A stretch of DNA of 64,000 bases, taken from assembly GCA_937924755.1 (NCBI GenBank), contig CALEVZ010000017.1:40532-104531 (forward strand). The letters are read 5' to 3'. A program made the position numbers and the translations under genes. This document shows positions 39,661 through 61,983 of the stretch, one piece after another. The notes under the pieces were generated by a model. The model saw only the letters and a program-made list of their open reading frames with translations. It did no database searches and was not told the DNA's origin. Position 1 is the stretch's first letter, and each line of letters starts with the position of its first letter. This stretch comes from an uncultured bacterium (GTDB lineage Bacteria; Acidobacteriota; Thermoanaerobaculia; Thermoanaerobaculales; Thermoanaerobaculaceae).

Positions 39661-39676
39661 GTTACGCCCGCGTTAC
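39661..39676. promoter_or_regulatory. Candidate regulator site GTTAC-GCCCGC-GTTAC
   Basis: Matches GTTAC-N6-GTAAC with one mismatch; 200 bp upstream of the dsrA sigma-54 element. Confidence 0.5.
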
Positions 39677-39764
39677 CTGCTCGACACAGCGCGACTCCCG
39701 GAGCGGAACGGCAAGCCATGAGACTACTGTGAAATCCCCGATCGGGACGAGCTCGCACGGTGCC

Positions 39765-39780
39765 GTCACCTCAGCGTAAC
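39765..39780. promoter_or_regulatory. Candidate regulator site GTCAC-CTCAGC-GTAAC
   Basis: Matches GTTAC-N6-GTAAC with one mismatch; 96 bp upstream of the dsrA sigma-54 element. Confidence 0.5.
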
Positions 39781-39875
39781 AGGGGGGATGGGCGAGCTAA
39801 CCCGAGGTCGCCCCAGGGCCCTGAAGCGTGCTCCGGAAAAGGGTTTGCCGCCCTTTCGGCAGGCGTTGAGGCCAA

Positions 39876-39891
39876 TGGCACAACGATTGCA
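39876..39891 (+). promoter_or_regulatory. Sigma-54 promoter of the dsr cluster (TGGCACAACGATTGCA)
   Basis: 11/12 specified positions of TGGCACG-N4-TTGCA with correct spacing; in the 482-bp intergenic region before dsrA. Confidence 0.75.
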
Positions 39892-40116
39892 GCGGGATGC
39901 ACCGGCGGGTGCGACCGGTGGAACGGGGCAGGTGCATCCGAAGGGGCTGTCGAAAAGTGACCAGGGCAATCGAGCGAGGGGGGGCGTGGACGGCGATGCG
40001 AGGCTGTGTCGATGGTGTGACCAGCCTCCCGCGCCACGGAGGGTCCCCTTTTCGCCAGCAAGAGGAGAGCAGGAGCCGAGACCGAATCCCTCGTCCATAT
40101 CGGGAAAGGAGCTGCC

Positions 40117-41310
40117 ATGAGTGAGAAGAAGAGAGAAACGCCGCTACTCGACGAGCTCGAGAAGGGGCCCTGGCCGAGCTTCGTGAGGGAGCTCAAGAAG
40201 AGCGCCGACACGCCGGTGATCCAGGACCTTCTCGGGCAGCTGGAGCGGTCCTACGAGGAGCACCTCGGGCACTGGAAACACGGCGGCATCGTCGGTGTGA
40301 TGGGGTACGGCGGTGGCGTGATCGGCCGTTACTCGGACCTCCCCGAGGAGTTTCCCCACATCGCCCATTTCCACACCATGCGCGTCAATCAGCCGGCGGG
40401 GTGGTTTTACACCTCCGACGCGCTGCGCAAGATCTGCGATATCTGGGAAGCGCACGGCTCCGGGATCACCAACATGCACGGCTCCACGGGCGACATCATC
40501 CTGCTGGGGACCACCACGGACCAGCTGGAGCCTGTCTTCAGCAAGCTGACCGAGATCGGCTTCGACCTCGGTGGCTCCGGCTCTGACATGCGAACCCCGT
40601 CGGCGTGCTGCGGTCCGGCTCGCTGTGAGTGGGCGTGCTACGACACCCTGGCGGCGGTCTACGACTTCACCCAGAGCTACCAGGACGAGCTCCACCGCCC
40701 GGCCTTCCCCTACAAGTACAAGCTGAAGTTCGCCGGCTGCCCCAATGACTGCGTGGCGTCGGTGGCGCGCGCCGACATGTCTTTTATCGGCACCTGGAAG
40801 GACGACATCCAGATGGATGCCGAGCAGGTGCGACAGTACGCCGCCAGCGGCACCGTCGATATCCAAAAGGACGTGTGCGAGCGCTGCCCCACCCGCTGCA
40901 TGAGCTGGGACGGGACCAACCTCACCATCGACAACAGTGAGTGCGTCAAGTGCATGCACTGCATCAACGTCATGCCCAAGGCGTTGCGCCCGGGCAAGGA
41001 GCGGGGGTGCACGGTGCTGATCGGCGCCAAGGCCCCCATCGTCGGTGGCGCCCTGCTGTCCAGCGTGTTCGTGCCCTTCATCGAGATGGAGCCGCCCTAC
41101 AGCGACCTGAAGGAACTGTTGGAGGCCATCTGGGACCTGTGGTCCGAGCACGGCAAGAACCGCGAGCGCGTGGGTGAGTTCATCCAGCGCGTGGGCCTGG
41201 GCAACTTCCTGGAGCAGATCGGTCTGGAGCCGGTTCCAGAAATGATCGCCCACCCGCGCACCAATCCCTACATCTTCTTCGGCGAAGAGCTGCACGAAAA
41301 GCAGGCTTGA
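40117..41310 (+). CDS. dsrA: Dissimilatory (bi)sulfite reductase alpha subunit
   Basis: [41 protein letters not shown], ferredoxin insertion [11 protein letters not shown]...[18 protein letters not shown]. Confidence 0.98.
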
Positions 41311-41342
41311 AGTCGCCGCGAGCCAAAGAAGGAGAACAGCGT

Positions 41343-42419
41343 ATGTCAGCCAGTCCCCGGAAAACCGATATCGGGCCTCCTCACTACGAGCAGTTCCTGC
41401 CGCCGATCATCAAGAAGAACTACGGCAAGTGGTTGTACCACGAGAACCCCCGTCCCGGCGTGTTGGTGCACGTCGCCGAGTCGGGTGACAAGCTGTACTC
41501 GGTGAGGGCGGGCACGCCGCGCATCCTCAACGTCAAAACCATTCGCCTCTTCGCCGATCTCGCCGACAAGTACTGCGGCGGTCACCTGCGCTTCACCAGC
41601 CGCAACAACGTGGAGTTCCTGCTCACCGATGAAAGCAAGATCGATGCACTCATCGAGGAGCTCCACGATCTGGGCTTCCCGGTGGGCGGGACGGGCAACG
41701 CCATCTCCGCCATCGTCCACACCCAGGGATGGGTGCACTGCCACTCCGCCGCCACGGACGCCTCCGGCGTGGTCAAGTCGCTGATGGACGAGCTGTATCC
41801 CCACTTCGTCAACATGGACCTGCCGGCCAAGCTGCGCATTGCCTTTGCCTGCTGCCTCAACATGTGCGGCGCGGTGCATTGCTCCGACATCGCCATCCTG
41901 GGGGTGCACACCCGGGTTCCCGAGATCGATCACGCCAACCTGCCCAAGATGTGCGAGCTGCCGACGCTCATCGCCTCCTGCCCGACCGGTGCCATCCGCC
42001 CGGCCACGGTGGACGGTCAGCAGTCCATCCACATCGAAGAGCACTTGTGCATGTACTGTGGCAACTGCTTCACCGTCTGCCCGGCGGTGAAAATCAACAA
42101 CGCCAAAACCGACGGCCTCTCCATCTGGGTAGGCGGCAAGGTCTCCAACGCCCGCACCGAGCCCAAGTTCTCCAAGCTGGTGATTCCGTTCCTGCCCAAC
42201 AACCCGCCGCGGTGGCCGGAAACCGTGGAGGCGGTCAAGCACCTGGTGGAGGTGTACGCCGCCAACGCTCGCAAGTACGAGCGCATGTCCGAATGGGTGG
42301 AGCGCATCGGCTGGCCGCGTTTCTTCAAGCTCACCGGCCTGCCGTTCACCAAGTACCACATTGACGATTTCACGCACGCCGGCGAGACCTACAAGCGCTC
42401 GGCGCAGCTAAAGCACTGA
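41343..42419 (+). CDS. dsrB: Dissimilatory (bi)sulfite reductase beta subunit
   Basis: [89 protein letters not shown]. Confidence 0.98.
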
Positions 42420-42436
42420 CGAGGGGGGGGAAGGTC

Positions 42437-42682
42437 ATGGCCGATCCTGTAAGCGTGGAGGAGGTCGCCGCCGCCATGTTCGACTTGGTCAAGTCGACTT
42501 ATGGCAAGAAGAACCTCAAGGCGATGGACCTCACCAAGGCGATGATCGAGCAGTTTGGCGAAGACCGCTGCGACAAGCAGCTGTGTAAGCAGGCCATTCG
42601 CCAGCTGATCGACTCCGGGAAGTGCACCTACTCCTACGTGGGTGGGAGCTACATCACGCTGCCTCCGGAGGCGGGGAGTTAA
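42437..42682 (+). CDS. dsrD: DsrD
   Basis: Small winged-helix protein FDLVKSTYGKKNLKAMDLTKAMIEQFGEDRCDKQLCKQAIRQLIDSGKCTYSYVGGSYITLP directly after dsrB. Confidence 0.95.
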   Translation: MADPVSVEEVAAAMFDLVKSTYGKKNLKAMDLTKAMIEQFGEDRCDKQLCKQAIRQLIDSGKCTYSYVGGSYITLPPEAGS

Positions 42683-42763
42683 CGGTCTGTGCTGCCGTCC
42701 CTGGGGCCGGCGGTTGCTGGCCCCAGGGCGCAGCCGACGCTGAAAGAAAGTGGAGGTGTGTCC

Positions 42764-43201
42764 ATGTCGGAAGCCAAGGGAGCAAACCGGTCGACGGCCA
42801 TGGTCGAACTGCTGGAGAAGTGGCAGGCGATCGAGCGCAAGAGCATCGAACAGTGCTCGGAGATCATGTCACGCACCCAGAATCCGCTGGTGCGACAGGT
42901 GATGGAGATCATCCGCAACGACTCCGGGCAGCATCATCGGGTGCAGCAGTTCCTCATCGACACCCTGACCAAGCAGGCCGCCTCCCTGACGCCGGAGGAG
43001 CTGGCGGAGATCTGGGACAAGATCGAGGAGCACATTGCCCTCGAGCGGGAAACCGTGGAACTGGCCAAGGAGCTCAAGAAGAAGGCCTTCTCGGTGGTCC
43101 ACAAGGTCATCCTGGAGTATCTGTTGATCGACGAGGAGAAACACGATCGCCTGCTCGATGAGCTGGAGCAGTTCAAAAAGGGGATGTACCCGTACGCGTA
43201 G
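42764..43201 (+). CDS. Ferritin/rubrerythrin-like four-helix protein
   Basis: AIERKSIEQCSEIM, NDSGQHHRVQQFLIDTLT, EEHIALERETVELAKEL, LIDEEKHDRLLDEL: spacing of ferritin-like metal ligands, only the last ExxH canonical. Confidence 0.65.
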   Translation: MSEAKGANRSTAMVELLEKWQAIERKSIEQCSEIMSRTQNPLVRQVMEIIRNDSGQHHRVQQFLIDTLTKQAASLTPEELAEIWDKIEEHIALERETVELAKELKKKAFSVVHKVILEYLLIDEEKHDRLLDELEQFKKGMYPYA

Positions 43202-43232: not shown

Positions 43233-44960
43233 ATGGGTTTGCTCAAGAAGAAGGATGACGTCAAAAAGCCGGCGTTTGCTTTTGCCTCCAAGGGATCCGG
43301 CGGTCAGCTTTCGCCGTTGCGGCCGGTGCAGCAGGAGAAACTGCCTCCATGCACGGACCATTGCCCCAGCGGCAACGACATCCGCGGTTGGCTGACGACC
43401 ATCGCCCTGCGGGAAAAACTGGGTTTGACCCTCGAACAGGCGTTGACCAAGGCCTGGTATTTGGAGGTCGAGACCAACCCCTTCCCGGCGATCATGGGGC
43501 GGGTCTGCCCTCACCCTTGCGAGAGGCACTGCAACCGTAAGGAGAAGGACGGGGCAGTGGCGATCAACTCGGTAGAGCGGGTGATCGGCGACTGGGGTAT
43601 CCAGCAGAACCTGCCCCTCCCAAGGCTGGACGAGGGGGGACCGTTCGCCGAGCGCATCGCCGTCATCGGGGCCGGTCCGGCCGGTCTGTCATGCGCCTAT
43701 CAGCTCGCCCGCCGCGGCTACGGCGTGTCCGTGTTCGAGTCGCTGCCGGCAGTGGGCGGCATGCTGCGCTACGGCATCCCCCAGTACCGCCTGCCCCGCC
43801 ACATCATCGACGCCGAGGTCAAGAAGATTGAGGATCTTGGCGTGGAAATCCGGTGCGGGGTGACGGTGGGCAAGGATGTCTCCTTCGCCGAGCTGCGCCG
43901 TGACTTCCAGGCCATTTTTGTTGCCATCGGTGCCCACCAGGGCAAGAACCTGGGGGTGCCGGGCGAGGACGGCCCGGGTCTGTGGACAGGTACCGAGTTC
44001 CTGAACCACGTCAACGCCGGCAAGCGCGTGGAGGTGGGGCCCAACGTGGTGGTGATCGGGGGTGGCGACACCGCCATCGACGCAGCGCGAGTGTCCAAGC
44101 GGGTGACCATGGACTCGGCGGCGGTTTCCAAGCGCCTGGGCGCTGAAGTCACCATCCTGTACCGCCGCACCCGGGCGGAGATGCCGGCCATCGAGCGGGA
44201 GATTGAGGAGGCATTGGAGGAGGGGATTCGCATCGAGTACTTGGCGGCGCCGGTGGAGATTTTGCGCAACGACGATGGGTCGGTGCGGGCCATGAAGGTG
44301 CAGCGGATGACCCTGGGGGAACCCGACTCCTCTGGGCGGCGGCGCCCGGTGCCCATCCCCGGCGACGTCTACGAGTTGCCGGTAGACACCATCATCACGG
44401 CGGTCAGCCAGCAGCCTGACCTGGCGAGGTTGGGGAGCGAGGAGCTGGGCAAGGACTGGCTCTCCTGCGACGAGTGGGGCCGTACGGGGGTCGAGGGGGT
44501 GTGGACGGGCGGCGACAACATCGGCCTTGGGCTCGCCACCATTTCCATCGGCCAGGGGGCAAAGGCGGCGCAGGCCATCGCGGCCTCGCTGCGCGGCGGA
44601 CAGCCGAAAGCCGCCCCGGCCAGGCCCAAGGTGGGACCCGAAAGGATCAAGATGGCGTGGTACCCCGACAAGCCCAGAGCGGAGCGGGCCATTCGCCCCG
44701 CCGCCGAACGCCTGGCCAAGCCGCTGGAAGAGATCGATCTGGGTATCACCCGGGAGCAGGCGCTGGAGGAGGTTACCCGCTGCTTTTCGTGCGGCAAGTG
44801 TTTTGCCTGCGAGAACTGCTGGATGTACTGCCAGAACAATTGCTTCACAAAGATTGCGGATCCCCACTTGGGCGAGTTCTACAAAGTCAAGCTGGAACTG
44901 TGCGACGGCTGCAAGAAGTGCGCCGAGGAGTGTCCCTGCGGCTTTCTGGATCTGGTCTGA
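43233..44960 (+). CDS. dsrL: DsrL-type NAD(P)H:acceptor oxidoreductase (GltD-like with C-terminal ferredoxin)
   Basis: CTDHCPSGNDIRGWL, IAVIGAGPAGLSCAYQLARRGYGVSVFE, VVVIGGGDTAIDAARVSKR, C-terminal RCFSCGKCFACENCWMYCQNNC...CDGCKKCAEECPCG. Confidence 0.92.
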   Translation: MGLLKKKDDVKKPAFAFASKGSGGQLSPLRPVQQEKLPPCTDHCPSGNDIRGWLTTIALREKLGLTLEQALTKAWYLEVETNPFPAIMGRVCPHPCERHCNRKEKDGAVAINSVERVIGDWGIQQNLPLPRLDEGGPFAERIAVIGAGPAGLSCAYQLARRGYGVSVFESLPAVGGMLRYGIPQYRLPRHIIDAEVKKIEDLGVEIRCGVTVGKDVSFAELRRDFQAIFVAIGAHQGKNLGVPGEDGPGLWTGTEFLNHVNAGKRVEVGPNVVVIGGGDTAIDAARVSKRVTMDSAAVSKRLGAEVTILYRRTRAEMPAIEREIEEALEEGIRIEYLAAPVEILRNDDGSVRAMKVQRMTLGEPDSSGRRRPVPIPGDVYELPVDTIITAVSQQPDLARLGSEELGKDWLSCDEWGRTGVEGVWTGGDNIGLGLATISIGQGAKAAQAIAASLRGGQPKAAPARPKVGPERIKMAWYPDKPRAERAIRPAAERLAKPLEEIDLGITREQALEEVTRCFSCGKCFACENCWMYCQNNCFTKIADPHLGEFYKVKLELCDGCKKCAEECPCGFLDLV

Positions 44961-47470: not shown

Positions 47471-47788
47471 ATGGCGATCTTCACTCACGGCAACATCTCT
47501 CTCGAAGTGGATGAGGACGGCTTCATCCAGGACCCCGAGCAGTGGAACGAAGAAGTTGCCAAGGCGCTGGCCACGACCGAGGGCGTCAGCGAATTGACCG
47601 AGAGCCACTGGAAAGTGGTGCACTACCTGCGCAAGTACTTCCTGGAGTTCGGGGTGGCGCCGATGATCCGCAAGCTCTGCAAGGAGACCGGGTTCACCCT
47701 GAAGGAGATCTACGAGCTGTTCCCCTCGGGTCCGGCCAAGGGCGCCTGCAAGGTTGCCGGGCTGCCCAAGCCCACCGGCTGCGTCTGA
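47471..47788 (+). CDS. dsrC: DsrC sulfur-carrier protein
   Basis: DEDGFIQDPEQWNEEVAKALA...KYFLEFGVAPMIRKLCKETGFTLKEIYELFPSGPAKGACKVAGLPKPTGCV; both C-terminal Cys (C-x10-C) present. Confidence 0.98.
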   Translation: MAIFTHGNISLEVDEDGFIQDPEQWNEEVAKALATTEGVSELTESHWKVVHYLRKYFLEFGVAPMIRKLCKETGFTLKEIYELFPSGPAKGACKVAGLPKPTGCV

Positions 47789-47840: not shown

Positions 47841-48002
47841 GCGCGGTGAAGGCTGGCGCGGACGAGGAGAGCGACGGTGCCGCGAGGTCGAGTCGCCACA
47901 CCCGCAAGATTTCCCTGGCTCCACGCCGGGTTGAGCGAGGAGGGTCGCGATGGGGAGGCAGATGGTGCTGGCCGTACCATGGCCGGTGCCGGGGGGAGGC
48001 CA

Positions 48003-48542
48003 GTGACGAAGCTGGGCACATGGCTTCAGCAACGGCGGGCCAGCGTTCTGGAGCGCTGGTTCGAGCTGGTGATCGCCACCTATCCACCGGAGAGCGCGGC
48101 GTTTCTGCGCGGCGAGAGGGACCGCTTCGCCAACCCCATCGGCTCCACCCTGCGGCGCGAACTACCAGCGCTTTTCGATGCCGTTTTCGGCGAGGGAGAC
48201 GGGGAGGAGGCGCGCCGGGCTGTGGCGGCGGTGATTCGGCTGCGTGCCGTGCAGCAGCTTTCCCCCGCCGCGGCGGTCAGCTTCGTGCCCCTGCTGAAGC
48301 GGGCCATCAGCCAGGAGCTGGGGGCGGAAGAGGGCGCGAGGGCGGCAGAACTCCTAACTCTTCACGCGCAAATTGACGAACTGACGCTGGCGGCGGTGAA
48401 CGAGCTGGTGGAGTGCCGCGAGCAGGTGTACCGACTCAAGGCCCAGGAGGCGCGGGCGCAGGTGCATTCGCTGCTGCGCCGCGCCGGCATGTTGGTCGAG
48501 GCCGGAGTCACAGACGACGGGAAAGGAGGTGGAGGGGAATGA
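48003..48542 (+). CDS. RsbRD N-terminal-domain-like protein
   Basis: LGTWLQQRRASVLERWFELVIATYPPESAAFLRGERDRFANPIGSTLRRELPALFDAVFG; ATGA overlap with dsrM. Confidence 0.7.
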   Translation: MTKLGTWLQQRRASVLERWFELVIATYPPESAAFLRGERDRFANPIGSTLRRELPALFDAVFGEGDGEEARRAVAAVIRLRAVQQLSPAAAVSFVPLLKRAISQELGAEEGARAAELLTLHAQIDELTLAAVNELVECREQVYRLKAQEARAQVHSLLRRAGMLVEAGVTDDGKGGGGE

Positions 48543-49531
48543 GTTTCATCTGGTCCCTCGTGATCTTCTCGGGGCTGGTCGCGCTCGTCCTCCTCGGCGT
48601 CGAGGGGGCGAAGCTGGAGGGGCTGTTCGGAATCTGGCTTCCCTACGCGGCGGTGGGCATCTTCGTCGGTGGCCTCATCGCCCGCGTGGTCAACTGGGGG
48701 AGGAGCCCGGTGCCGTTTCGCATTCCCACCACCTGTGGCCAGCAAAAGTCGCTTCCCTTCATTCGCCACGCCCGCCTCGACAACCCCGCCACCGGGCTGG
48801 GCGCGGCGGCGCGGGTGGCGCTGGAGGTGCTGACGTTTCGCTCGCTCTTCCGCAACACCAAGGCGCAGTTGACGCAGGACAGGCGACTCGTGTACGGCTC
48901 CGAAAAGTACCTGTGGGCGGGGGCGCTGGCGTTTCACTGGGCGTTTCTGGTCATTCTGGTGCGGCACTATCGGTTCTTCGCCGAGCCGGTGCCGGTGGTG
49001 ATCGGCTGGATTCAGGGGCTCGACGGGTTCTTCGAGGTGGGGTTGCCGGTGATTTACGCCACCGACGTGGTGATCCTTGCCGCCCTGGGCTACTTGCTGG
49101 GCCGCCGGCTGGCGGACGCCCGCCTGCGGTACTTCTCCATGGCCGCCGACTACTTCCCCCTCTTCCTGCTCCTCGGGGTGGCGGGCAGCGGCGTGCTGCT
49201 CCGCTACGTGTGGAAGACCGACATCACCCGGGTGAAGGAGCTGGCGGTGGGGCTGGCGAGTTTCCGGCCGGTGCTGCCCGAGGGGCTGGGCGCCATGTTT
49301 TACGTCCACCTCTTCCTCGTGTGCGCCCTGCTCGCCTACTTCCCGTTCTCCAAGTTGACGCACATGGCGGGGGTGTTCCTGTCGCCCACCCGCAACCTCG
49401 CCAACTCCAATCGAGCCCGCCGCCACATCAATCCGTGGAACCCCCCCATCGTCGGGCACACCTACGCCGAGTGGGAGGAGGAGTTCCGCGACAAGATCAA
49501 GGCGGCTGGCATTCCGCTGGATCGGGAGTGA
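48539..49531 (+). CDS. dsrM: DsrM membrane cytochrome b subunit
   Basis: Polytopic membrane protein with RHYRFFAEPVP, YFPFSKLTHMAGVFLSPTRNLANSNRARRHINPWN; precedes dsrK. Confidence 0.93.
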   Translation: MSFIWSLVIFSGLVALVLLGVEGAKLEGLFGIWLPYAAVGIFVGGLIARVVNWGRSPVPFRIPTTCGQQKSLPFIRHARLDNPATGLGAAARVALEVLTFRSLFRNTKAQLTQDRRLVYGSEKYLWAGALAFHWAFLVILVRHYRFFAEPVPVVIGWIQGLDGFFEVGLPVIYATDVVILAALGYLLGRRLADARLRYFSMAADYFPLFLLLGVAGSGVLLRYVWKTDITRVKELAVGLASFRPVLPEGLGAMFYVHLFLVCALLAYFPFSKLTHMAGVFLSPTRNLANSNRARRHINPWNPPIVGHTYAEWEEEFRDKIKAAGIPLDRE

Positions 49532-49537
49532 GCGACG

Positions 49538-51154: not shown

Positions 51155-51530
51155 CGGGGGCAAGATCTTGGCCGGCATTGCTATTTTCCTCGGTTTGGTG
51201 CTACTGCCGGTGTGGCACAACGCGGTGGTGGCCTCGGCGCCCCGGCCAGAGGTGAAGACTCCGACCCACGAGAAACACTGCGTGGACAGCGCCGCCGTCA
51301 TGCGCGCCTCGCACATGAACGTGCTGGACCAGTGGCGGGACGCCGTGGTGCGGGAGGGGGTGCGCACCACCGTGACGCCCACTGGCATGACCGTGTCCAT
51401 GAGCCTGACCAAGACATGCATGAATTGCCACGCCAACAAGAAGGAGTTTTGCGACGCCTGCCACAACTACCTGGCGGTGTCGCCCACCTGCTGGGAGTGC
51501 CACGTGGAACCGAAGGGGAGTTCGTCATGA
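51147..51530 (+). CDS. dsrJ: DsrJ triheme cytochrome c
   Basis: N-terminal TM anchor and three CxxCH: CMNCH, CDACH, CWECH. Confidence 0.95.
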   Translation: MYDGGKILAGIAIFLGLVLLPVWHNAVVASAPRPEVKTPTHEKHCVDSAAVMRASHMNVLDQWRDAVVREGVRTTVTPTGMTVSMSLTKTCMNCHANKKEFCDACHNYLAVSPTCWECHVEPKGSSS

Positions 51531-52276
51531 AGGCGGGGCGCAGGAGTTTTCTAAAAAACGCCGGGCTCGGCGCCCTGGGCCTGGCCGCCAGCAAGGCTTT
51601 CCCCGCGGGGGCGGAAGGCGCCAAGGCCGGCGGCGGCCCGCGTTGGGCGATGCTGATCGACACCCGCAAGTGTCTGGAAGAAAAAGAATGTGCCAAGTGC
51701 GCCGAGGCTTGCCACGAGGCCCACAACGTGCCCACCCTGCCCAACCCCCGCCACGAGGTGAAATGGATCTGGAAAGAGAACTTCAGGGAGGCGTTCCCCG
51801 ACCAGGAAGCGGAGTACTTCGACGAGGTGCTGACCTCCAGCAAGATGCTGGTGTTCTGCAACCACTGCGACAAGCCGCCGTGTACCAGGGTGTGTCCCAC
51901 CCAGGCCACCTGGCGGCGGGCCGATGGCGTCGTGATGATGGACTGGCACCGTTGCATCGGCTGCCGCTACTGCGTCGCCGCCTGCCCTTACGGTTCGCGG
52001 TCGTTCAACTGGATAGATCCGAGGCCGCACCTGGCCAACGTCACTCCCACCTACCCCACTCGCACCAGGGGGGTGGTGGAGAAGTGCACCTTCTGCGAGG
52101 AGCGCCTGCCGGAACACCGGTCCCCCGCCTGCGTCGAGGCGTGTGAGGCCAAGGCCATGATGTTCGGTGATCTGGCCGACCCCACCTCGGAGATTCGCGA
52201 GGTGCTGCGCACCCGCTTTGCAGTTCGACGGCGACCCGGTCTCGGGACCCACCCCGAGATCTTTTACCTGGTGTGA
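51527..52276 (+). CDS. dsrO: DsrO periplasmic Fe-S protein (Tat signal)
   Basis: RRSFLKNAGLGALGLAASKAF Tat-like signal; CNHCDKPPCTRVCP, CIGCRYCVAACPYG, CTFCEERL. Confidence 0.95.
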   Translation: MKAGRRSFLKNAGLGALGLAASKAFPAGAEGAKAGGGPRWAMLIDTRKCLEEKECAKCAEACHEAHNVPTLPNPRHEVKWIWKENFREAFPDQEAEYFDEVLTSSKMLVFCNHCDKPPCTRVCPTQATWRRADGVVMMDWHRCIGCRYCVAACPYGSRSFNWIDPRPHLANVTPTYPTRTRGVVEKCTFCEERLPEHRSPACVEACEAKAMMFGDLADPTSEIREVLRTRFAVRRRPGLGTHPEIFYLV

Positions 52277-52283
52277 GGTGCCC

Positions 52284-53441
52284 ATGCTGGAAAAAGCTCT
52301 TGTCGGCAACCGTTCCTACTGGGGTTGGCTGGCGCTGCTGGCCGGCATCATCGCCGTGGGGGCGTTTTTCTACCTGCGCCAGTTCGCCGTGGGCTTAGGG
52401 ATCACAGGGCTGTCGCGCGACGTCACCTGGGGGTTTTACATTGCCCAATTCACCTTCCTGGTGGGAGTGGCCGCCTCGGCGGTAATGGTGGTGTTGCCCT
52501 ACTACCTGCACAACTACAAGGCGTTTGGCAAGATGACCATCCTCGGCGAGTTTCTCGCCATCGCCGCGGTGATCATGTGCATGCTGTTCATCTTCGTGGA
52601 CATGGGTCAGCCCACCCGGGTCTTGAACGTGATCCTCTACCCCACCCCCAAGTCGCTGATGTTCTGGGACATGGTGTCGCTCTCGGGATATCTGGTGCTG
52701 AACGTGCTCATCTCCCACGTCACCCTGGATGCCGAGCGCAAGGGAATTGCGCCGCCCTCCTGGATCAAGCCCATTATCATTCTGTCGATCCCCTGGGCGA
52801 TCAGCATCCACACGGTAACGGCGTTCCTCTACTCCGGTCTGGCGGCGCGCCCGTTCTGGATGACCGCAGTGCTGGCACCGCGCTTTTTGGCGTCGGCGTT
52901 TGCCGCCGGTCCGGCGTTGCTCATCCTCATGACCTTGCTGATCCGCCGCCTGACCCGTTTCGACCCGGGTCGGGAACCGCTGCAGCGGCTGGCGGTGATC
53001 GTCACCTACGCCATGACCATGAACGTGTTCCTGATCCTGATGGAACTGTTTACCGGCCTCTATTCGGCCATCCCGGAGCACGTGGCGCACTTCAAGTTCC
53101 TCTACGTGGGGCTGGAGGGCAACACCACCCTGGTGCCATGGATGTGGACCTCAGTGGTCCTGGCGGTGCTGGCGCTGGTGCTGCTGCTCAATCCCCATAC
53201 CCGGGGCAAGGAGAAGACGCTCATCGTCGCCTGCCTGGCGGTGTTCTTCTCCATCTGGATCGACAAGGGGCTGGGAATGGTGGTGACCGGGTTTGTGCCC
53301 TCGCCTCTGGGGCACGTCACCTCCTACTGGCCGACCCTGCCCGAGGTGGCCATCTCGGTGGGGATCTACGCCGTCGGGGCGCTGGTGATCACCATCTTCT
53401 ACCACATCGCCCTGTCGGTGCGGGGCGAGATCGCCCACTAG
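52284..53441 (+). CDS. dsrP: DsrP (NrfD-family) membrane subunit
   Basis: NrfD-like polytopic protein following dsrO: GLSRDVTWGFYIAQFTFLVGVAASAVMVVLPYYLHNYKAFG. Confidence 0.95.
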   Translation: MLEKALVGNRSYWGWLALLAGIIAVGAFFYLRQFAVGLGITGLSRDVTWGFYIAQFTFLVGVAASAVMVVLPYYLHNYKAFGKMTILGEFLAIAAVIMCMLFIFVDMGQPTRVLNVILYPTPKSLMFWDMVSLSGYLVLNVLISHVTLDAERKGIAPPSWIKPIIILSIPWAISIHTVTAFLYSGLAARPFWMTAVLAPRFLASAFAAGPALLILMTLLIRRLTRFDPGREPLQRLAVIVTYAMTMNVFLILMELFTGLYSAIPEHVAHFKFLYVGLEGNTTLVPWMWTSVVLAVLALVLLLNPHTRGKEKTLIVACLAVFFSIWIDKGLGMVVTGFVPSPLGHVTSYWPTLPEVAISVGIYAVGALVITIFYHIALSVRGEIAH

Positions 53442-53453: not shown

Positions 53454-55118
53454 GTGGCGGTGCGACGGGTGGTGGTCGTGGGGGCGTCAGCGGCGGGTTT
53501 GAAGTGCGCCTGCCGCCTGGCCCGCATTGCTCCCAGCTGGCAGGTCACCGTGGTGGAGGAGCGCCCGCTCTTCTCCTACGCCGCCTGCGGCCTGCCCTAC
53601 GTGCTCTCCGGCGACGTGGACGACCCCGACGCCCTCCGCCGCACCGCCGACGGGACCCTGCGGGATGAGGCGTACTTCGCCCATGTCAAGGGGGTAGAGA
53701 TACGGTCAGGTTGGCGGGCCATCGCCATCGACCTCGAGGGCAAGCGACTGCGACTGGCGGGCAGGGACGGGGGTGAGGACACCCTGTCGTGGGACGAACT
53801 GGTGCTGGCCACGGGGGCTCGGCCGCGGCGCCTGCCGTTCCAAGGTGACCACCCGCGAGTGGGAGCGTTTCATACCTTCGAGGATCTGCAGCGCCTGCGC
53901 CGGGGCCTGGAGCGAGGTGAGATCGGCCGGGTGGGGGTGATCGGTGCCGGACCGGTGGGGTGCGAGCTGGCGGAGGCATTCAGGGCGCTGTGGGGAGCTG
54001 AGGTGACGCTGCTGGAGCAGGGTCCCTGGCCCCTGCCCGGGCTGGTGGATCGGGAGGTGGGGGCGGTGGTGGCGGCAGCCCTTGAGGCCGGCGGGGTGCG
54101 CCTGGTCTGCGAGGCGGCCGTGACGGCCATCGACCCCTCGAACGAGTCGGTGAGGGTGATGTGGGGCGGCGGGGAGGTGGACGTCGATGTGGCGGTGGTG
54201 GCCGTGGGGGTCGAGCCCGCCACCGAGCTGGCGGCCGCCGCCGGGGCGATGCTTGCCGCCGGCGGGGCGATCGGGGTGGACGAGCGCATGGCCACCTCAT
54301 TGCCGGGGGTGTGGGCGGTGGGCGACTGCATCGCCGTCCCCCACGCAGTGCTTCCAACGCCGGTATTCCTGCCGCTGGGGTCGCTGGCCAACCGACAGGG
54401 GCGGGTGGCCGCCAACGTCATCGCCGGCCGAGCCGATCGCCTGCCGCCGGTGGCTGGCGCCATGGCGATCAAGGTGTTTGACTGCCACCTGGCCGCCACC
54501 GGCATCACGGCCGCCCAGGCGGGGCGGCACGGGGTGCCGGCCGCGAGCGTCTGGGTGACCGCCCACGACCGCGCTCACTATTGGCCGGAGGCGGATGAAA
54601 TCGCCCTCGCACTGGTGTACGACCCGACCACCCGGCGGGTGCTGGGGGTGCAGGGGGTGGGCTCGGCGGAGGCGATCAAGCGCGTCGACGTGGCCACTCA
54701 GGTCATCGCCCGGGGTGGAACCATTGATGAGCTGGCCCAGGTGGAGCACGCCTACGCCCCGCCCTACGCCCCCGCCCTGGATCCCCTGGCGGTGGCGGCC
54801 TTTGCCGCCCAGAACCAGGAGGAGGGTTTGCCGGCCCGGTCGCCACTGGCACCGCTGGAGGGGGTTACGTTGCTGGATGTGCGGCACCAGTGGGAGCGGG
54901 AGGAGCGCCCCGCCAACGGCGGCCATGCCCTGGCGGTACCCCTGGGGGAGCTGCGCGGCGAGGTGGAGGCGCTCCCGGTAAACGCCGGCCTAGTGGTGTG
55001 TGAGCGGGGGGCGCGGGCGGCGGAGGCGGTACGCATGCTGGCGGTGGCGGGTCGGCGCGCTGCCTACCTGGGTGGAGGATTGCGATGGCGGCAGCTGCTG
55101 CGCTGGGGGCGGCCGTGA
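53454..55118 (+). CDS. CoA-disulfide/persulfide reductase-like FAD oxidoreductase with C-terminal rhodanese domain
   Basis: VVVVGASAAGLKCACRLAR, FSYAACGLPYVLSG (redox Cys), VGVIGAGPVGCELAEAF, ANRQGRVAANVIAG; C-terminal LLDVRHQWEREE...LVVCERGARAAEA rhodanese loop. Confidence 0.88.
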   Translation: MAVRRVVVVGASAAGLKCACRLARIAPSWQVTVVEERPLFSYAACGLPYVLSGDVDDPDALRRTADGTLRDEAYFAHVKGVEIRSGWRAIAIDLEGKRLRLAGRDGGEDTLSWDELVLATGARPRRLPFQGDHPRVGAFHTFEDLQRLRRGLERGEIGRVGVIGAGPVGCELAEAFRALWGAEVTLLEQGPWPLPGLVDREVGAVVAAALEAGGVRLVCEAAVTAIDPSNESVRVMWGGGEVDVDVAVVAVGVEPATELAAAAGAMLAAGGAIGVDERMATSLPGVWAVGDCIAVPHAVLPTPVFLPLGSLANRQGRVAANVIAGRADRLPPVAGAMAIKVFDCHLAATGITAAQAGRHGVPAASVWVTAHDRAHYWPEADEIALALVYDPTTRRVLGVQGVGSAEAIKRVDVATQVIARGGTIDELAQVEHAYAPPYAPALDPLAVAAFAAQNQEEGLPARSPLAPLEGVTLLDVRHQWEREERPANGGHALAVPLGELRGEVEALPVNAGLVVCERGARAAEAVRMLAVAGRRAAYLGGGLRWRQLLRWGRP

Positions 55119-56152
55119 TCCCGGGGGCAACGCCGGTGGCCATGGTGGGGATCGACCACCACGTGGCAGGGGTGGATCTGCTGGCCCGGGCGTGTGGGCA
55201 GGCGCGGGAGTTGCCAGCCATCCGCGCCCTTTCCGGCGGGGTGGTGGCCGTGAGCACCTGTCACCGACGGGAGCTGTACCTGGAGGGTGTTGCCCCAGCC
55301 GGTCTGTCCATGCTGGCGGAGCGCTGGCTGGGCGCGGAGGCGGCCGGATGGGCGGTAGTGCGCCGGGGCTACGAGGCGGTGGTGCACCTACTGCGGGTGG
55401 GGGCGGGACTGGAGTCGGTGGTCCTGGGCGAGGACCAAATCCTGGGGCAGCTGCGCTCCGCCTACCGCGAGGCGTGCGCCGGATCCCTCGCCGGACCAGT
55501 GTTGCACCGGCTTTTTCACGCCGCCTTCCGCACCGGCAAGCGGGTGCGGAGCGAAACGGAGCTGGGAAGCGGCGGGCGCTCGCTGGCCGGTACGGCGGTG
55601 AATCTCATCGAGCGCCGCCTGGGGGGCCTGGATTGCGCCGCGGTGTTGGTGCTGGGGGCGGGGGAGATGGCGACCGTCGCCGCCGGCCGCCTGCGCGACC
55701 GCGGGGCCGGGCGGATCGTGATCTCCTCCCGCACCCTAGCTCGCGCCGAGGCGCTGGCGGCGGCGGTGGGGGGTGACGCGGTGCCGTGGGAGTGGCGGGA
55801 GCAGGCGGTGGCGGCGGCCGACGCCGTCGTGTCGGCGGTATCCTCGCCCAACCCGGTGATTTCCGCCGCAGCGTTGGGTGCCCTTGCCACCGGCCGCCGC
55901 CGGGTGGTGGTGGATCTGGGACTTCCCCGCAACGTCGAGGGTCTTCGCGAGCTGCCTGCCGGCGTCGAGCTCATCGACCTGGACGGTCTTCGTGCCCACC
56001 TGGCCAGCTCGGCGGCGCGACGCGCCGACGCCGTGGCTGCGGCGGAGGCCATCGTAGCCGAGGAAGCCAACGTCTTCGCCGCCTGGCTGGCGTCCCGTGC
56101 GGCGGGTGACGTACACTCCCGGCTGTGCTGCCGGCGAGGCGCCGTCGGGTAG
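55085..56152 (+). CDS. hemA: Glutamyl-tRNA reductase, lacking the C-terminal dimerisation domain
   Basis: GGVVAVSTCHRRELYLEG, GAGLESVVLGEDQILGQLRSAYREA, VLVLGAGEMATVAAGRL, VVVDLGLPRNVE; ends soon after the NADP domain. Confidence 0.88.
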   Translation: MAAAAALGAAVIPGATPVAMVGIDHHVAGVDLLARACGQARELPAIRALSGGVVAVSTCHRRELYLEGVAPAGLSMLAERWLGAEAAGWAVVRRGYEAVVHLLRVGAGLESVVLGEDQILGQLRSAYREACAGSLAGPVLHRLFHAAFRTGKRVRSETELGSGGRSLAGTAVNLIERRLGGLDCAAVLVLGAGEMATVAAGRLRDRGAGRIVISSRTLARAEALAAAVGGDAVPWEWREQAVAAADAVVSAVSSPNPVISAAALGALATGRRRVVVDLGLPRNVEGLRELPAGVELIDLDGLRAHLASSAARRADAVAAAEAIVAEEANVFAAWLASRAAGDVHSRLCCRRGAVG

Positions 56153-56261
56153 GTCCTTCCGTCTATTGCCCAGGACAGGCGACAGCTGGGGGTTGCCTCC
56201 AGCTACTTGGCCGTGCCTCTGGCGCGGCCGCGGGGTGGCGGGCCGGGACAAGGGGCCGGAC

Positions 56262-58070
56262 ATGTTCCCGGTGATGTTGAACCTGACCGGGCGGCGCTGC
56301 CTGGTGGTGGGTGGGGGTGGGGTGGCGCTTCGGAAAGTAGATGCGCTGCTGGGGGAGGGGGCGGAGATCACGGTGGTGGCGCCGGAACCCCAGGCGCGGC
56401 TCGAGGCCCTGGCCGCAGCCGGGAAGCTGCGGCTGGAACGCCGCTCCTACCTCCCGGGGGAGGCCGGCGGCTTCGCCCTCGTCTTCGCGGCCACCGACGA
56501 TCGCGAGGTCAACCGGCGGGTCTTCGAGGACGCCGAGGCCGCCGGCATCTGGGCCAACGTCGCCGATGACCCCCAGCTGTGCAGCTTCCACCTGCCGGCG
56601 CGCGTGCGGCGCGGTGAGCTGCAGTTCGCCATCTCCTCGTCGGGGCAAGCGCCTTTCGCCACGCGCCGCCTGCGCCAGGTGTTGGAACGGCGGTTCGGGC
56701 AGGAGTGGGGGGAGTGGCTGGCGGCGGCAGGGGAGTTTCGCCGGCGGGTTCGCGGCCTGCGCCTTCCCCCGGCCAGCGAGGAAGGTCTCTTCGACACCTT
56801 CTTCGCCGCCACGGTGACCCCCACGACCCTGAAATGCCGGGTACCGCTGACCGAGGAGGTGGAGGGGTGGCTGGCTACCGTGGCGGGAGAGGAAGACGCT
56901 GCCGGAGCGCCTGTGCCCTCGGAAGACGCCTCGCTCCCCGCGCCGTCGGCGCCCGGCCTGGTTAGTCTGGTGGGAGCCGGACCGGGCAATTCCGGCTTGC
57001 TGACCCTGCGGGGGCGGCGGCGGCTTCTGGCCGCGGACGCGGTGGTGTGCGACCGCCTGGCCGAAGCGGCGCTCCCCCCCGACCTCCCCGAGGGCGTGGA
57101 AATCCACTGCGTGGGTAAGGTGGCGGGCAACCATCCCACGCCCCAGGAGGAGATCAACGCTCTGTTGGTTCGCCTGGCCCGCCAGGGCAAGCGGGTGGTG
57201 CGCCTCAAAGGCGGCGATCCCTTCGTCTTCGGGCGGGGAGGAGAAGAGGGGGAGGCGCTGCGGGCGGCGGGGGTGCCCTTCGAGGTCGTTCCCGGGGTCA
57301 CCGCCGGGGTGGCCGTGCCAGCCTACGCGGGTATTCCGGTGACCCACCGGCGGGAGGCGGTGCGGGTGACTTTTCTCACCGCCCACGAGACCATTAAGAG
57401 CGGCGGTCCGCAGGTGCGCTGGGATCTGCTGGCCCATGACCCCCACGCCACCATCGTGGGGTACATGGGGGTGACCAGCCTGCCAGTGGTCACCCAGCGA
57501 CTCCTGCAGGAGGGGATGGCGCCCGACACCCCGGCGGCCATCATCGAGCGCGGCACTACGGCCGCCCAGCGAGTGGTCACCTCCACCCTGGCCCACCTGG
57601 CCGCCGACGCGACCGCTGCCGGGATCGAACCTCCCGCACTGTTCGTCATTTCGCCAGCGGTGCGGCATGCGCCGTTGCTCGACTGGTTTTCCACCCGCCC
57701 CCTGGCCGGGCGGCGTGTGCTGGTCCCGGCCCCGGCGCCGGAAGTGGTCGAGGCCCTGGATGTGCTGGGCGCGGACGTGGTGGAATGCCCGCTGCCTCCT
57801 TCATCGGCGGCGCGCCTGGTGATCGCCTCCTCGCCGCTGACCGGTTGTGTGCTGGCCACCCGCGACGAGGTGGAGGCACTGGACGGTGAGCGTTCCCGCC
57901 CCGGCTGGGACGGGGGGGTGGTGGTGTGGTGTCGATCCAGCGCGGCGGCCGAGCGGGCGCGCCAGCTGGGGTGGCGACGGGTGGTGGAGGTGGGTGAAAC
58001 CCTGGCCGATCTGCTCCGCTTTATGACAGGACGGTCGCCCATGGCGGCCGGTCACCGCCACGGGGGATGA
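56262..58070 (+). CDS. cysG: Fused siroheme synthase: precorrin-2 dehydrogenase + uroporphyrinogen-III C-methyltransferase + short HemD-like tail
   Basis: MFPVMLNLTGRRCLVVGGGGVALRKVDALL; LVSLVGAGPGNSGLLTLRGRRRL, VVRLKGGDPFVFGRGGEEGEAL, VVPGVTAGVAVPAYAGIPVTHR; tail TRPLAGRRVLVPAP resembles HemD start. Confidence 0.93.
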   Translation: MFPVMLNLTGRRCLVVGGGGVALRKVDALLGEGAEITVVAPEPQARLEALAAAGKLRLERRSYLPGEAGGFALVFAATDDREVNRRVFEDAEAAGIWANVADDPQLCSFHLPARVRRGELQFAISSSGQAPFATRRLRQVLERRFGQEWGEWLAAAGEFRRRVRGLRLPPASEEGLFDTFFAATVTPTTLKCRVPLTEEVEGWLATVAGEEDAAGAPVPSEDASLPAPSAPGLVSLVGAGPGNSGLLTLRGRRRLLAADAVVCDRLAEAALPPDLPEGVEIHCVGKVAGNHPTPQEEINALLVRLARQGKRVVRLKGGDPFVFGRGGEEGEALRAAGVPFEVVPGVTAGVAVPAYAGIPVTHRREAVRVTFLTAHETIKSGGPQVRWDLLAHDPHATIVGYMGVTSLPVVTQRLLQEGMAPDTPAAIIERGTTAAQRVVTSTLAHLAADATAAGIEPPALFVISPAVRHAPLLDWFSTRPLAGRRVLVPAPAPEVVEALDVLGADVVECPLPPSSAARLVIASSPLTGCVLATRDEVEALDGERSRPGWDGGVVVWCRSSAAAERARQLGWRRVVEVGETLADLLRFMTGRSPMAAGHRHGG

Positions 58071-59026
58071 AAACAGCCTCCGCCCCCGGGTTTCAGGGCC
58101 GCCTGCAGGGAGAAAAAGGGTCTTCTCGCCTTGGGCGTTGGCGGGTCTTGTTCGCTCTTCTGCTGCTGGCGGCGATCCGCGCCGTGGCAGCGCCACCGCT
58201 GTCCCCGCCGATGAAGCTGGGAGTGGTCAGTTTCTACAACCCCCGCCTCATGTACCTCAAGTACCAGCCGCTCGTCGACTACCTCTCGGAGAGAACCGGT
58301 GCCGCCTGGCAGCTGGCCATCAGTGGATCCTACGAGCGCACCGTGGAGGCGCTGTGCACTGGCGAGGTGACCCTGGCCTACCTGGGGCCCTTCACCTATC
58401 TGCGGGCGCGGGAGCGCTGTGGGGCCGAGCCGCTGGCGCGGCTCAATACCGGCGGGCGCGCCGAGTACACCAGCCTGATCCTAATCAGGCGCGGCAGCCC
58501 CATCAAGACGCTGGCCGATCTGGCCGGCAAGCGGTTCGCCTTCGGTTCGCCCCTGTCCACCTCTTCCCACCTGGTGCCGCGGGCGATGCTCCTGGACGCT
58601 GGGCTGCGTCCGGGGGACAACGTCGTTTGTTTGTACCTCGAACACCACGAGCGGGCGGCCCGGGCGGTGCTGCTGGGTCAGGCGGAGGCTTGCGGTGTCC
58701 GCGATCTCACCGGGCGGAAATTCGTCGAGCGGGGGCTTGAGGTCCTGGCCAAGTCCTCGCCCATCCCCAATTTTCCCCTGGTGCTCTCGCCACGCGCTGG
58801 CGGCGCGATCCGGGCTGAGCTGCTGGCGGCTCTGCTGGAGGCGCCGGCTCAGGACCCGTGGGTGGCGGCAAAGATGGCGGGGTGGGACGAGGAGTTGAGC
58901 AGCGGGTTCGCTCCGGCCTCCGCCGACGAGTACCTGGCTGTCCACCACCTGGCCCGGCGGGTGTTTGGGGACAGGGTGTTGATCCGCCCCGAGGCCGAGC
59001 TCTCCTGCGCCGGCGGGGGGCGCTGA
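58067..59026 (+). CDS. PhnD-like periplasmic phosphate/phosphonate(oxyanion)-binding protein
   Basis: LGVVSFYNPRLMYLKYQPLVDYLSERTG, GEVTLAYLGPFTYL, SPIKTLADLAGKRFAFGSPLSTSSHLVPRAML; no ABC permease or ATPase nearby. Confidence 0.88.
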   Translation: MKTASAPGFQGRLQGEKGSSRLGRWRVLFALLLLAAIRAVAAPPLSPPMKLGVVSFYNPRLMYLKYQPLVDYLSERTGAAWQLAISGSYERTVEALCTGEVTLAYLGPFTYLRARERCGAEPLARLNTGGRAEYTSLILIRRGSPIKTLADLAGKRFAFGSPLSTSSHLVPRAMLLDAGLRPGDNVVCLYLEHHERAARAVLLGQAEACGVRDLTGRKFVERGLEVLAKSSPIPNFPLVLSPRAGGAIRAELLAALLEAPAQDPWVAAKMAGWDEELSSGFAPASADEYLAVHHLARRVFGDRVLIRPEAELSCAGGGR

Positions 59027-60492
59027 TGCTGGGCCTAGGGCTGCGCACCAAGTTCTTCCTGTACTCCAATACCCTGATCATCGTCACCGTGGGCCTGGTG
59101 GCGGTGATCGGCATCGCTCACGAGCGGGAGGTGCGCTACGAGGCGATCCGAGGGCGGGGGATCAGCCTCACCGAGGCGCTAGCCATTCCCATTACCGACT
59201 CACTGATGAACGAGGACCTGGGGCTAGTGCCCGAGACTGGGTTAATCGACAACTACATCACCGAAGTGCTGGCGCGCAACCAGGACCTGATGCGGTACGT
59301 GGTGGTGGCCGATGCCAGCGGCGTGGTCACCCACTCCAACCGCTGGGAGTTAATGGGGCAGCGTTTCCGACGCGCCCTCGCCCCCCGGTCGGCGACGGCC
59401 GCCGCCGAGGTGGAGATGCGCACCTCCTCGGGGGGAGAGAGGATTCTCGAGGTGCGCGCTCCCTTGGCCATCTCGACCAAGTTCTGGGGCTCTGTCGCCG
59501 TGGGGTTTTCTCTGGAGCCGGTGGAAAAGGAGGTGCGCGCCATCGGCCAGCGCGCGGCACTGCTGGCTCTCATCCTGATGGTCGGCAACTCGGTGCTCAC
59601 GGCCCTTTATGTGGAAACCCTCATCCGGCCCCTTCTCAACCTCAACCAGACCATGAAGCGTGCCGCCCGCGGCGAGTACGGCGCCCGGGCCATGGTGCGG
59701 CGGGGGGACGAGGTGGGGGAGCTGACGGACGCCTTCAACCGCATGATGGACGAGCTCGAGGAGGCGAGCGAGCGCGAACGCGTGCGGCAGAGCCAGCTCC
59801 TCCACACCGAGAAGATGGCGGCGGTCGGTACGCTGGCTGCCGGAGTGGCGCACGAGGTCAATAACCCCCTGGCCGGGATCCTGACGTGCATCGAGCAGAT
59901 GCGTTCGAACCCCGACGATGAGGAGTTGCGCAAACGCTACCTGGATCTGATGGAGGACGGCATCCGCCGGATCGCGCACATCGTCGAGAACCTCCTGGAT
60001 TTTTCCCGGCCCCGCGACATCCGGCCGGAACCCACGCCCATCAACCACAGCCTCCTGCACGTCGCCGAGCTTTTGGATTACCAGCTGCGCAAGGCCAGGG
60101 TGGAGGTCAAACTGGAGCTCGACCCTTCCGAACCGGTGGTGCTTGCCGATCACTTCCAGATGGAGCAGCTCTTTCTCAACCTCATGCTCAATGCCGTCCA
60201 GGCCATGCCGGGGGGAGGCGTGATGACCCTGAGGACGCGGGTGCGGGGGGCGCTGGTGATCGTCGAGGTGTCCGACACCGGCACCGGTATTCCCGAGGAG
60301 ATTCGCGACCGGATTTTCGAGCCGTTCTTCACCACCCGCGAGGTGGGCGAGGGGACGGGGTTGGGTTTGGCGGTCAGTTACAGTATCGTAACGGGGCACG
60401 GGGGAAGCATCGATGTGGAGAGCTCTCCCGGGCACGGATCGACGTTTCGCGTGCGCCTCCCGTTGCGGGAGGGCAGGAGGGGAGAAGGATGA
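59026..60492 (+). CDS. Membrane sensor histidine kinase (HAMP-HisKA-HATPase)
   Basis: Two TM helices, HAMP-like region, [22 protein letters not shown] (H-box), [52 protein letters not shown]. Confidence 0.95.
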
Positions 60493-61862
60493 CGGTCAGC
60501 GGTCGGCGTCTGCTCATTGTCGAGGACGAACCGATCCTGCGCATCACCATGGCGGATGCCTTGCGCAAGGAGGGGTGGCTGGTGGATGTGGCCGAAGACG
60601 GTGCGCGTGGGCTGGCGTTGTTCCAGACTCAGCTCCACGAGGTGGTGCTGTCCGACCTGTTGATGCCGAAGTTGGATGGCATGGAGCTGCTCAAACGCGT
60701 CAGGGCGCTGCAGCCCGAGACGACGGTGGTCATCATCACCGCCCACGGCACTGTGGACGGCGCCGTGGAGGCCATGCGGCTGGGGGCAGCGGATTTCATC
60801 ACCAAGCCCTTTTCCATGATGCAGCTAATCTTGCGGCTGAACAACGTGTGCTCCTTCAAGCAGCTTCGCGAGCAGAACCTGCGCCTGCAGGAGCAGCTGG
60901 AGAAACGCCACTCCTTCGGCTCGATGATCGGCAAGTCCAAGCGCATGCGGGAGGTGTTCGAGCTGATTCGGGTGGTGGCCGACTCCGACGCCTCGGTGCT
61001 GGTGCTGGGAGAGAGCGGGACGGGGAAGGAGATGGTGGCGGCGGCCATCCACTACAACTCGCCGCGCCGCTCCCGCCCGTACATCCGGGTGAGCTGCGCA
61101 TCCCTTCCGGAGTCCCTGATCGAGTCGGAGCTGTTCGGCTACGAAAAGGGAGCGTTCACCGGTGCCACGGAACGACGCATCGGGCGTTTCGAGGCGGCTT
61201 CCGGCGGCACCCTGTTTCTGGATGAAATTGGCGAGCTGCCCCTCAACTTTCAGGTCAAGCTGTTGCGCGTGCTGCAGGAACGCCAGGTGGAACGACTGGG
61301 CTCGCACCGCACCATCGACGTGGACGTGCGCATCGTTTCCGCCTCTCTGCGTCCCCTGGAGGAGGAAATAAAGGCTGGCAAGTTTCGCGAAGATCTGTAT
61401 TTCCGAGTGAACACCGTGGCCATCCACCTGCCTCCCCTGCGGGAGCGGCGGGAGGACGTGCCCATCCTGGCGCAGGCCTTTCTCGAGGAGTTTCGCCGGG
61501 AGCGGGGCAAACCCATCGAGGGGTTCAGCGACGAGGCGCTGGCCGCCTTCGATGCCTACTCCTGGCCAGGTAACGTTCGCGAGTTACGCAACGTCGTCGA
61601 AAGGGCCGTGCTGTTTTGCACCCGCTCTCGCATTGGTGTCGATGAACTGCCGGAGGCGTTGCGGGAGGGCAGGCGCAGCAGCGAAGCACTGCCGCCGGAG
61701 CCGGTCCTGGCTTTGCACGAGGCGGTGAAGCGTGCCGAGGTTGAGGCCATCCGCGCGGCGTTGTCGGCCACGGGAGGACGGCGCACCCAGGCGGCAGAGT
61801 TGTTAGGGGTGAGTCGCAAGACGCTGTGGGAAAAGACCAAGCAGTACGGTCTAGAGGAGTAA
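60489..61862 (+). CDS. Sigma-54-dependent NtrC-family response regulator
   Basis: [18 protein letters not shown] receiver, [15 protein letters not shown] Walker [36 protein letters not shown] (GAFTGA), Fis-type [26 protein letters not shown]. Confidence 0.97.
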
Positions 61863-61877
61863 CGCGTGTCAGGCGAT

Positions 61878-61893
61878 GTTTCGCAGGCGTAAC
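61878..61893. promoter_or_regulatory. Candidate regulator site GTTTC-GCAGGC-GTAAC
   Basis: GTTAC-N6-GTAAC with one mismatch; 75 bp upstream of the porin sigma-54 element; shares GTTWCGC-NN-GCGTWAC with the dsrA site at 39661. Confidence 0.5.
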
Positions 61894-61967
61894 AGATTCC
61901 TGTCTCGGGTCGTTCCCACAAGGACGAAGAAATAGAGTGGCTCGAGTTATTCTCGTTGTAGGGAGTA

Positions 61968-61983
61968 GGGCATGGGGTTTGCA
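61968..61983 (+). promoter_or_regulatory. Sigma-54 promoter of the porin gene (GGGCATGGGGTTTGCA)
   Basis: GG-N10-GC spacing, 10/12 specified positions of TGGCACG-N4-TTGCA, perfect TTGCA -12 element; 82 bp upstream of the ATG. Confidence 0.7.

Follow-up and report, generated by a model that had tools for sequence, protein, structure and literature searches.

The window analysed here is a stretch of 64,000 nucleotides from an uncultured bacterium of the Thermoanaerobaculaceae (Acidobacteriota; contig CALEVZ010000017.1, positions 40,532 to 104,531, forward strand). It carries a redox operon, a cluster of dsr genes for dissimilatory sulfite reduction, a sensory gene module at the end of that cluster and a gene for an outer-membrane porin. 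Two elements recur in this DNA, a palindrome with the consensus GTTAC-N6-GTAAC and the -24/-12 element of sigma-54 promoters, with the consensus TGGCACG-N4-TTGCA. Distances between the two are counted from start to start, palindrome to -24 element. Upstream of dsrA and of the porin gene the following are present.

39661..39676, plus strand: distal palindrome upstream of dsrA, GTTACGCCCGCGTTAC, one mismatch, 215 bp ahead of the -24 element
39765..39780, plus strand: main palindrome upstream of dsrA and predicted regulator site, GTCACCTCAGCGTAAC, one mismatch, 111 bp ahead of the -24 element
39876..39891, plus strand: -24/-12 sigma-54 promoter element of dsrA, TGGCACAACGATTGCA, one mismatch, kept in 13 aligned dsrA promoters
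61878..61893, plus strand: palindrome of the porin gene, GTTTCGCAGGCGTAAC, one mismatch, 90 bp ahead of the -24 element
61968..61983, plus strand: -24/-12 sigma-54 promoter element of the porin gene, GGGCATGGGGTTTGCA, two mismatches

These elements, together with a palindrome at 28190 that is taken up below, are all found where an original prediction made from this DNA had placed them. Taken singly, neither motif is decisive. When up to two mismatches are allowed, 13 copies of the palindrome are present in the window where 4.9 would be expected, a modest enrichment, and sigma-54-like sites with up to three mismatches are rarer than in shuffled sequence (45 against 68 expected). It is the pair that is specific: a core -24/-12 element with a palindrome 70-240 bp upstream is found within the window only at 39876 and 61968.

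The same specificity holds for the genome as a whole, which encodes rpoN (PF04552, E 7.8e-64), as a sigma-54 regulon demands. There are four perfect palindromes, against 0.7 expected from base composition, and 12 further sites with one mismatch. The perfect copies lie upstream of sat, upstream of aprB, at 28190 and at 60377. The genes sat and apr are located on a different contig (C5) from dsr, and their palindromes are followed on the gene strand by -24/-12 elements at 98 bp (sat, one mismatch) and 183 bp (aprB, three mismatches, with the core GG/GC retained). We also searched the 3.35 Mb with an unbiased combined pattern consisting of a GTAAC half-site, 75-105 bases and GGCAY-N5-TTGC. This pattern occurs at four places only, which are those upstream of sat, aprB, dsrA and the porin gene, and at all four the -24 GG and the -12 GC stand at the fixed spacing in a sequence close to the consensus. 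The pairing is thus set apart from unrelated intergenic regions, on which the original prediction could have foundered. Eight one-mismatch palindromes lie at unrelated places; seven were examined and rejected as regulon members, having no sigma-54 element at enhancer distance, and the eighth, on contig C57, was left out. The predicted regulon is extended by these searches beyond dsr and the porin to sat and apr-qmo, and since it also holds these genes it would cover the whole pathway from sulfate to sulfide.

Conservation was examined in a first set of 40 related genomes, mostly fragmented assemblies, in which kinship inflates the counts. Each of dsrA and aprB was found in 18 of these. A palindrome with a -24/-12 element is present within 800 bp upstream in 11 of the 18 dsrA regions, and at some of the other dsrA loci the pair lies about 1.8-2 kb upstream, ahead of a gene for a YeiH-like membrane protein. 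All 17 aprB upstream regions that were long enough contain the pair. Among perfect palindromes in the relatives, 45 of 59 (76%) are followed 75-225 bp downstream by a core -24/-12 element with at most two mismatches, compared with 8 of 976 controls (0.8%). The spacing from palindrome to promoter peaks at 109-111 bp (20 of 53), and the 111 bp that separate the main dsrA palindrome of the window (39765) from its promoter match the spacing kept in relatives. When 13 dsrA promoters from 13 genomes are aligned, the palindrome and the -24/-12 element are the only strongly conserved islands, so that the conservation upstream of dsrA that had been proposed as a check is borne out for both elements. 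The combined pattern and its reversed control give 63 and 12 occurrences in the 21 dsr/apr genomes, and 13 and 19 in the other 19 (sums made by hand).

A genome from a different family of the class, G078, provides an out-of-sample case that fits. Its 5.4 Mb contain a single perfect palindrome, which lies 255 bp upstream of dsrA and has a -24 element at 114 bp, and the divergent aprB has a palindrome/-24/-12 pair as well. In this genome (loci L269 and L270) dsr, apr, the sensory module and the palindromes show the identity that is usual within the order, while most of the class is without them, a distribution which suggests that the module was transferred together with dsr. Among 80 DsrA loci that include other phyla we found 13 perfect palindromes. 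Twelve, all followed downstream by a good sigma-54 element, belong to eight loci that bear the labels Acidobacteria, Holophagae or Thermoanaerobaculia/-ales. The remaining one is on a Planctomycetota contig (L062), where the sigma-54 element is weak. An extension of the regulon to the dsr loci of other phyla was rejected, the palindrome being nearly absent there. At loci L204, L227 and L234 of relatives the palindrome also occurs upstream of genes for a protein of the Na+/sulfate symporter family, for a rhodanese and for a cytidylate-kinase/CBS protein.

These comparisons bear on the possibility that the palindromes are remnants or chance occurrences and that the genes are transcribed from ordinary promoters. 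The modest enrichment of single motifs in the window would be consistent with this, but chance is contradicted by the genome-wide specificity of the pair, the fixed spacing, the phylogenetic footprint, the high frequency with which perfect palindromes of relatives are followed by -24/-12 elements and their near absence from the dsr loci of other lineages. We consider this explanation extremely improbable.

Between the dsr cluster and the porin gene lies a sensory module of three genes.

58067..59026, plus strand: periplasmic binding protein, PtxB/ArrX/AioX-like (PF12974), predicted signal receptor
59026..60492, plus strand: sensor histidine kinase with sCache_3_2, HAMP, HisKA and HATPase domains
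60489..61862, plus strand: NtrC-type response regulator, predicted regulon activator, with a PF00072 receiver, a PF00158 AAA+ domain with GAFTGA, and PF02954 (HTH_8, Fis-type)

With its receiver, GAFTGA-containing AAA+ domain and Fis-type helix-turn-helix, the third protein has the complete make-up of an NtrC-type enhancer-binding regulator. The binding protein most resembles PtxB (4e-27), then ArrX (6e-16) and AioX (2e-9), and it retains the STSSH motif common to PtxB-type proteins; no permease gene was seen adjoining its gene. In the relatives' loci L250-L270, the sensor region of the kinase is 54-62% identical to that of the window where a binding-protein gene lies beside the kinase and 38-47% identical where none was found. 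The kinase domains are alike in the two groups (63-74% and 66-72%, respectively). This covariation of the sensor region, but not of the kinase domain, with the binding protein suggests that the binding protein and the sensor domain function as partners.

A perfect palindrome missed by the original prediction, GTTACAGTATCGTAAC at 60377-60392, lies inside the kinase gene, 112 bp before the regulator start. We rejected it as an autoregulatory site, in that it is coding, has no -24/-12 element at enhancer distance and is absent among the perfect sites of relatives; it is probably coincidental. In one relative (G024, locus L265, contig G024:C57) a second copy of the kinase and regulator genes stands behind a perfect palindrome and a perfect -24/-12 element (132 bp), and this second copy is likely autoregulated.

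Several observations point to the adjacent regulator as the protein that would bind this palindrome. Orthologs, full or partial, are present in 20 of the 40 relatives at 67-81% identity, and the next proteins drop to 48%. Of the 148 genomes of the class that were compared, 19 have dsrA, 19 have the regulator and 16 have both (Fisher p = 8e-16, a value that is not corrected for shared ancestry). The co-occurrence extends to the separate family represented by G078, and the regulator gene closes the dsr cluster in most of the relatives that were read. Every ortholog that covers the recognition-helix segment of the regulator has it unchanged as SRKTLWEK, and paralogs differ there. AioR, which comes from a system of similar build, has a consensus site that takes in this palindrome, as set out below. 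Searches of plasmids returned only generic NtrC and PhnD relatives. Taken with rpoN, the genome-wide specificity and the conservation, this co-occurrence supports the original proposal of a sigma-54 regulon that embraces dsr and the porin through GTTAC-N6-GTAAC.

Certain facts weigh against the circuit as we understand it. The dsrA and porin palindromes of the window each carry a mismatch, the related genomes are not independent observations, a binding-protein gene next to that of the kinase was found in about half of the relatives but not in the others, and the site at 28190, described below, departs from the layout of an upstream enhancer. In addition, three genomes (G001, G011 and G016) have dsr or apr and conserved palindromes and are without the adjacent regulator, possibly because their assemblies are incomplete. 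These three genomes, and the presence of ten or more NtrC-type proteins (E of 1e-60 or lower) in the genome of the window, would accord with a regulon that is real and dependent on sigma-54, but in which some other NtrC-type activator binds the palindrome and the adjacent regulator controls something else. The co-occurrence with dsrA, the position at the cluster end and the distinct recognition helix all argue for the adjacent regulator instead, as does the second copy in G024, which is itself preceded by the palindrome and promoter. We judge a different activator to be quite unlikely.

We consider it highly probable that Acidobacteriota of the Thermoanaerobaculia type possess a sigma-54 regulon devoted to dissimilatory sulfate reduction, which is run by the sensory module that closes the dsr cluster. 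In the circuit that we propose, the binding protein, kinase and NtrC-type regulator (58067-61862) would sense a signal, probably a sulfur oxyanion held by the periplasmic protein. The regulator, once phosphorylated, would bind GTTAC-N6-GTAAC, mostly about 110 bp upstream of the -24/-12 promoters, and its GAFTGA AAA+ domain would remodel sigma-54 RNA polymerase, leading to transcription of sat, apr-qmo, dsr and the porin gene. Binding by the regulator, activation, phosphorylation and the nature of the signal are steps that we infer from sequence.

The redox operon fits this arrangement less simply, and its features are as follows.

28061..28076, plus strand: weak candidate -24/-12 element, GGGCACAAATCCTGCA, three mismatches, 129 bp upstream of the palindrome at 28190
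28190..28205, plus strand: perfect palindrome in front of the redox operon or within its leader, GTTACCTTGTGGTAAC
28223..37863, plus strand: redox operon encoding a protein with flavin adenine dinucleotide, iron-sulfur (Fe-S) and CCG domains, NuoG-like and NuoEF-like proteins, a membrane protein and an Fe-S/CCG protein

The window and five relatives have a perfect palindrome no more than about 40 bp from the start of the operon's first gene, and no -24/-12 element was found downstream of it. In all five relatives a better -24/-12 element is located 234-283 bp upstream of the palindrome. Thus the perfect copy that had been predicted ahead of this operon is indeed present, but it sits at the gene start, with its candidate promoter upstream rather than downstream. 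It may be a leader enhancer that acts from downstream; another reading is that it is a repressive or roadblock site. Within the operon, just upstream of the membrane protein gene, TGGCACGCATTTTTCA at 35266-35281 has one mismatch to the sigma-54 consensus and is without the -12 GC. The homologs of this gene in relatives have both a palindrome and a sigma-54 element, and the element in the window is possibly a decayed promoter.

As to the signal, the module might answer phosphite, phosphonate or arsenic oxyanions and so tie sulfate respiration to one of these. The sequence of the binding protein, nearest to PtxB (phosphite) and then to ArrX (arsenate), and its STSSH motif would accord with such ligands. 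On the other hand, the targets are genes for sulfate activation, adenosine 5'-phosphosulfate (APS) reduction and sulfite reduction, joined in relatives by those for the rhodanese and the symporter-family protein, and the PF12974 domains of TtrS and ThsS serve tetrathionate and thiosulfate (PMC5408782). A signal of the first kind is unlikely, although it carries more weight than a different activator does. Given the nature of the target genes and the precedent of TtrS and ThsS, we favour a sulfur oxyanion as the probable ligand. A fuller version of the circuit is tentative, and we hold it to be slightly less probable than its negation. Here a PtxB/ArrX-type sulfur-oxyanion sensor with an AioR-like regulator would switch the genes for sulfate activation, APS and sulfite reduction, electron transfer and anion transport together, one operon among them through a leader enhancer, and the whole would have moved with dsr between families of the Acidobacteriota.

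The closest parallel is with AioXSR and ArxXSR of arsenite oxidisers (PMC5908839, PMC3834237, PMC5335332), in which a PtxB-like periplasmic protein, a kinase and an NtrC/AtoC-type regulator are likewise encoded together and palindromic sites likewise lie upstream of a -24/-12 promoter. The AioR consensus is GTT-N10-AAC (PMC5335332); GTTAC-N6-GTAAC falls within it, and two sites of the window depart by one mismatch apiece. The three-component gene layout and compatible sites are found at 58067-61862, whereas the neighbouring genes are those for dsr, siroheme and the porin and not for an arsenic oxidase or reductase. Unlike the arsenite oxidase systems, the module here is assigned to sat, apr-qmo and dsr in a regulon of several loci, and its binding protein is nearer to PtxB than to AioX and was found in only about half of the relatives. 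By analogy the module is one that would work like AioXSR, and it is not classed as a member; the likeness to AioR considered here is one of layout and site.

Among sulfate reducers, HcpR of Desulfovibrio, of the CRP/FNR family, is a predicted repressor of sat and apsAB through TTGTGA-N6-TCACAA sites, with dsrAB outside the predicted regulon (PMC545781). There too a single palindrome is common to the sat and apr promoters, but HcpR is predicted to act at promoters of the -35/-10 type and leaves out dsr, whereas the present regulon uses sigma-54 and includes dsr. The sigma-54 regulome of Desulfovibrio vulgaris Hildenborough is also that of a sulfate reducer with many NtrC-type activators (PMC4641369); the words dsr, apsA and sulfite are absent from the main text of that study. 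TtrSR and ThsSR (PMC5408782) similarly employ a PhnD-like (PF12974) domain for sulfur oxyanions and control sulfur respiration, with the difference that the domain is built into the kinase, while in the present module it makes up a protein of its own, and the regulator, with sigma-54, is of the NtrC type. A 2025 comparative study of sigma-54 mentions neither Acidobacteria nor sulfate, and in a 2023 review of the diversity of sulfate and sulfite reducers the words regulator and sigma do not appear. We found no published equivalent of a sigma-54 regulon for sulfate respiration in the open-licence literature, a search that could miss a report in a subscription journal.

Little is known of how the genes for sulfate respiration are switched on, and HcpR is the sole pathway-level proposal that we found. 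In the present case one palindrome and one promoter class link sat, apr-qmo and dsr to a single identifiable regulator, in a lineage that has come to light chiefly through metagenomes. What results is an activator open to direct testing, a set of predicted transcription starts, a probe with which to assay binding and a candidate receptor for sulfur oxyanions. The circuit may also have a bearing on the conditions under which Dsr is used by these organisms. In one metagenome-assembled genome (MAG) of the Acidobacteriota, dsrAB was transcribed almost only under anoxia (PMC10564751), and any link between that MAG and this circuit is conjectural.

The remaining genes of the dsr region are listed here.

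38012..39460, plus strand: YeiH-like membrane protein (PF03601, 4e-21; TIGR00698 weak)
40117..41310, plus strand: dsrA (TIGR02064, NCBIfam equivalog, E 1.6e-177)
41307..42419, plus strand: dsrB (TIGR02066, NCBIfam equivalog, E 1.7e-152)
42437..42682, plus strand: 81-residue open reading frame with the position and size of DsrD, no Pfam match
43233..44960, plus strand: dsrL-type NAD(P)H oxidoreductase (Fer4_20 and Pyr_redox_2), named by position and domains
47471..47788, plus strand: dsrC (PF04358, E 1.9e-39)
48413..53441, plus strand: dsrM, dsrK, (dsrJ), dsrO and dsrP-type membrane complex genes (Nitrate_red_gam, Fer4_8, Fer4_11, NrfD), named by domains and order
55085..58070, plus strand: tetrapyrrole/siroheme synthesis genes (glutamyl-tRNA reductase type; uroporphyrinogen methylase/siroheme type)
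62065..63429, plus strand: Porin_O_P outer-membrane porin (PF07396, E 5.7e-12)

The nearest relatives of DsrA are from Acidobacteriota, the best at 80% to a Thermoanaerobaculia MAG. The DsrD-sized reading frame is not confidently named DsrD, because it has no Pfam match. Between it and dsrL, a reading frame of 145 residues at 42764-43201 is also without a Pfam match, and a dsrN-type protein is encoded in the cluster as well. The YeiH-like gene has a promoter with the palindrome and -24/-12 pair in several relatives. Directly upstream of dsrM lies a gene for an RsbRD_N domain protein (47877-48542), whose copies in relatives have a palindrome and -24/-12 element of their own.

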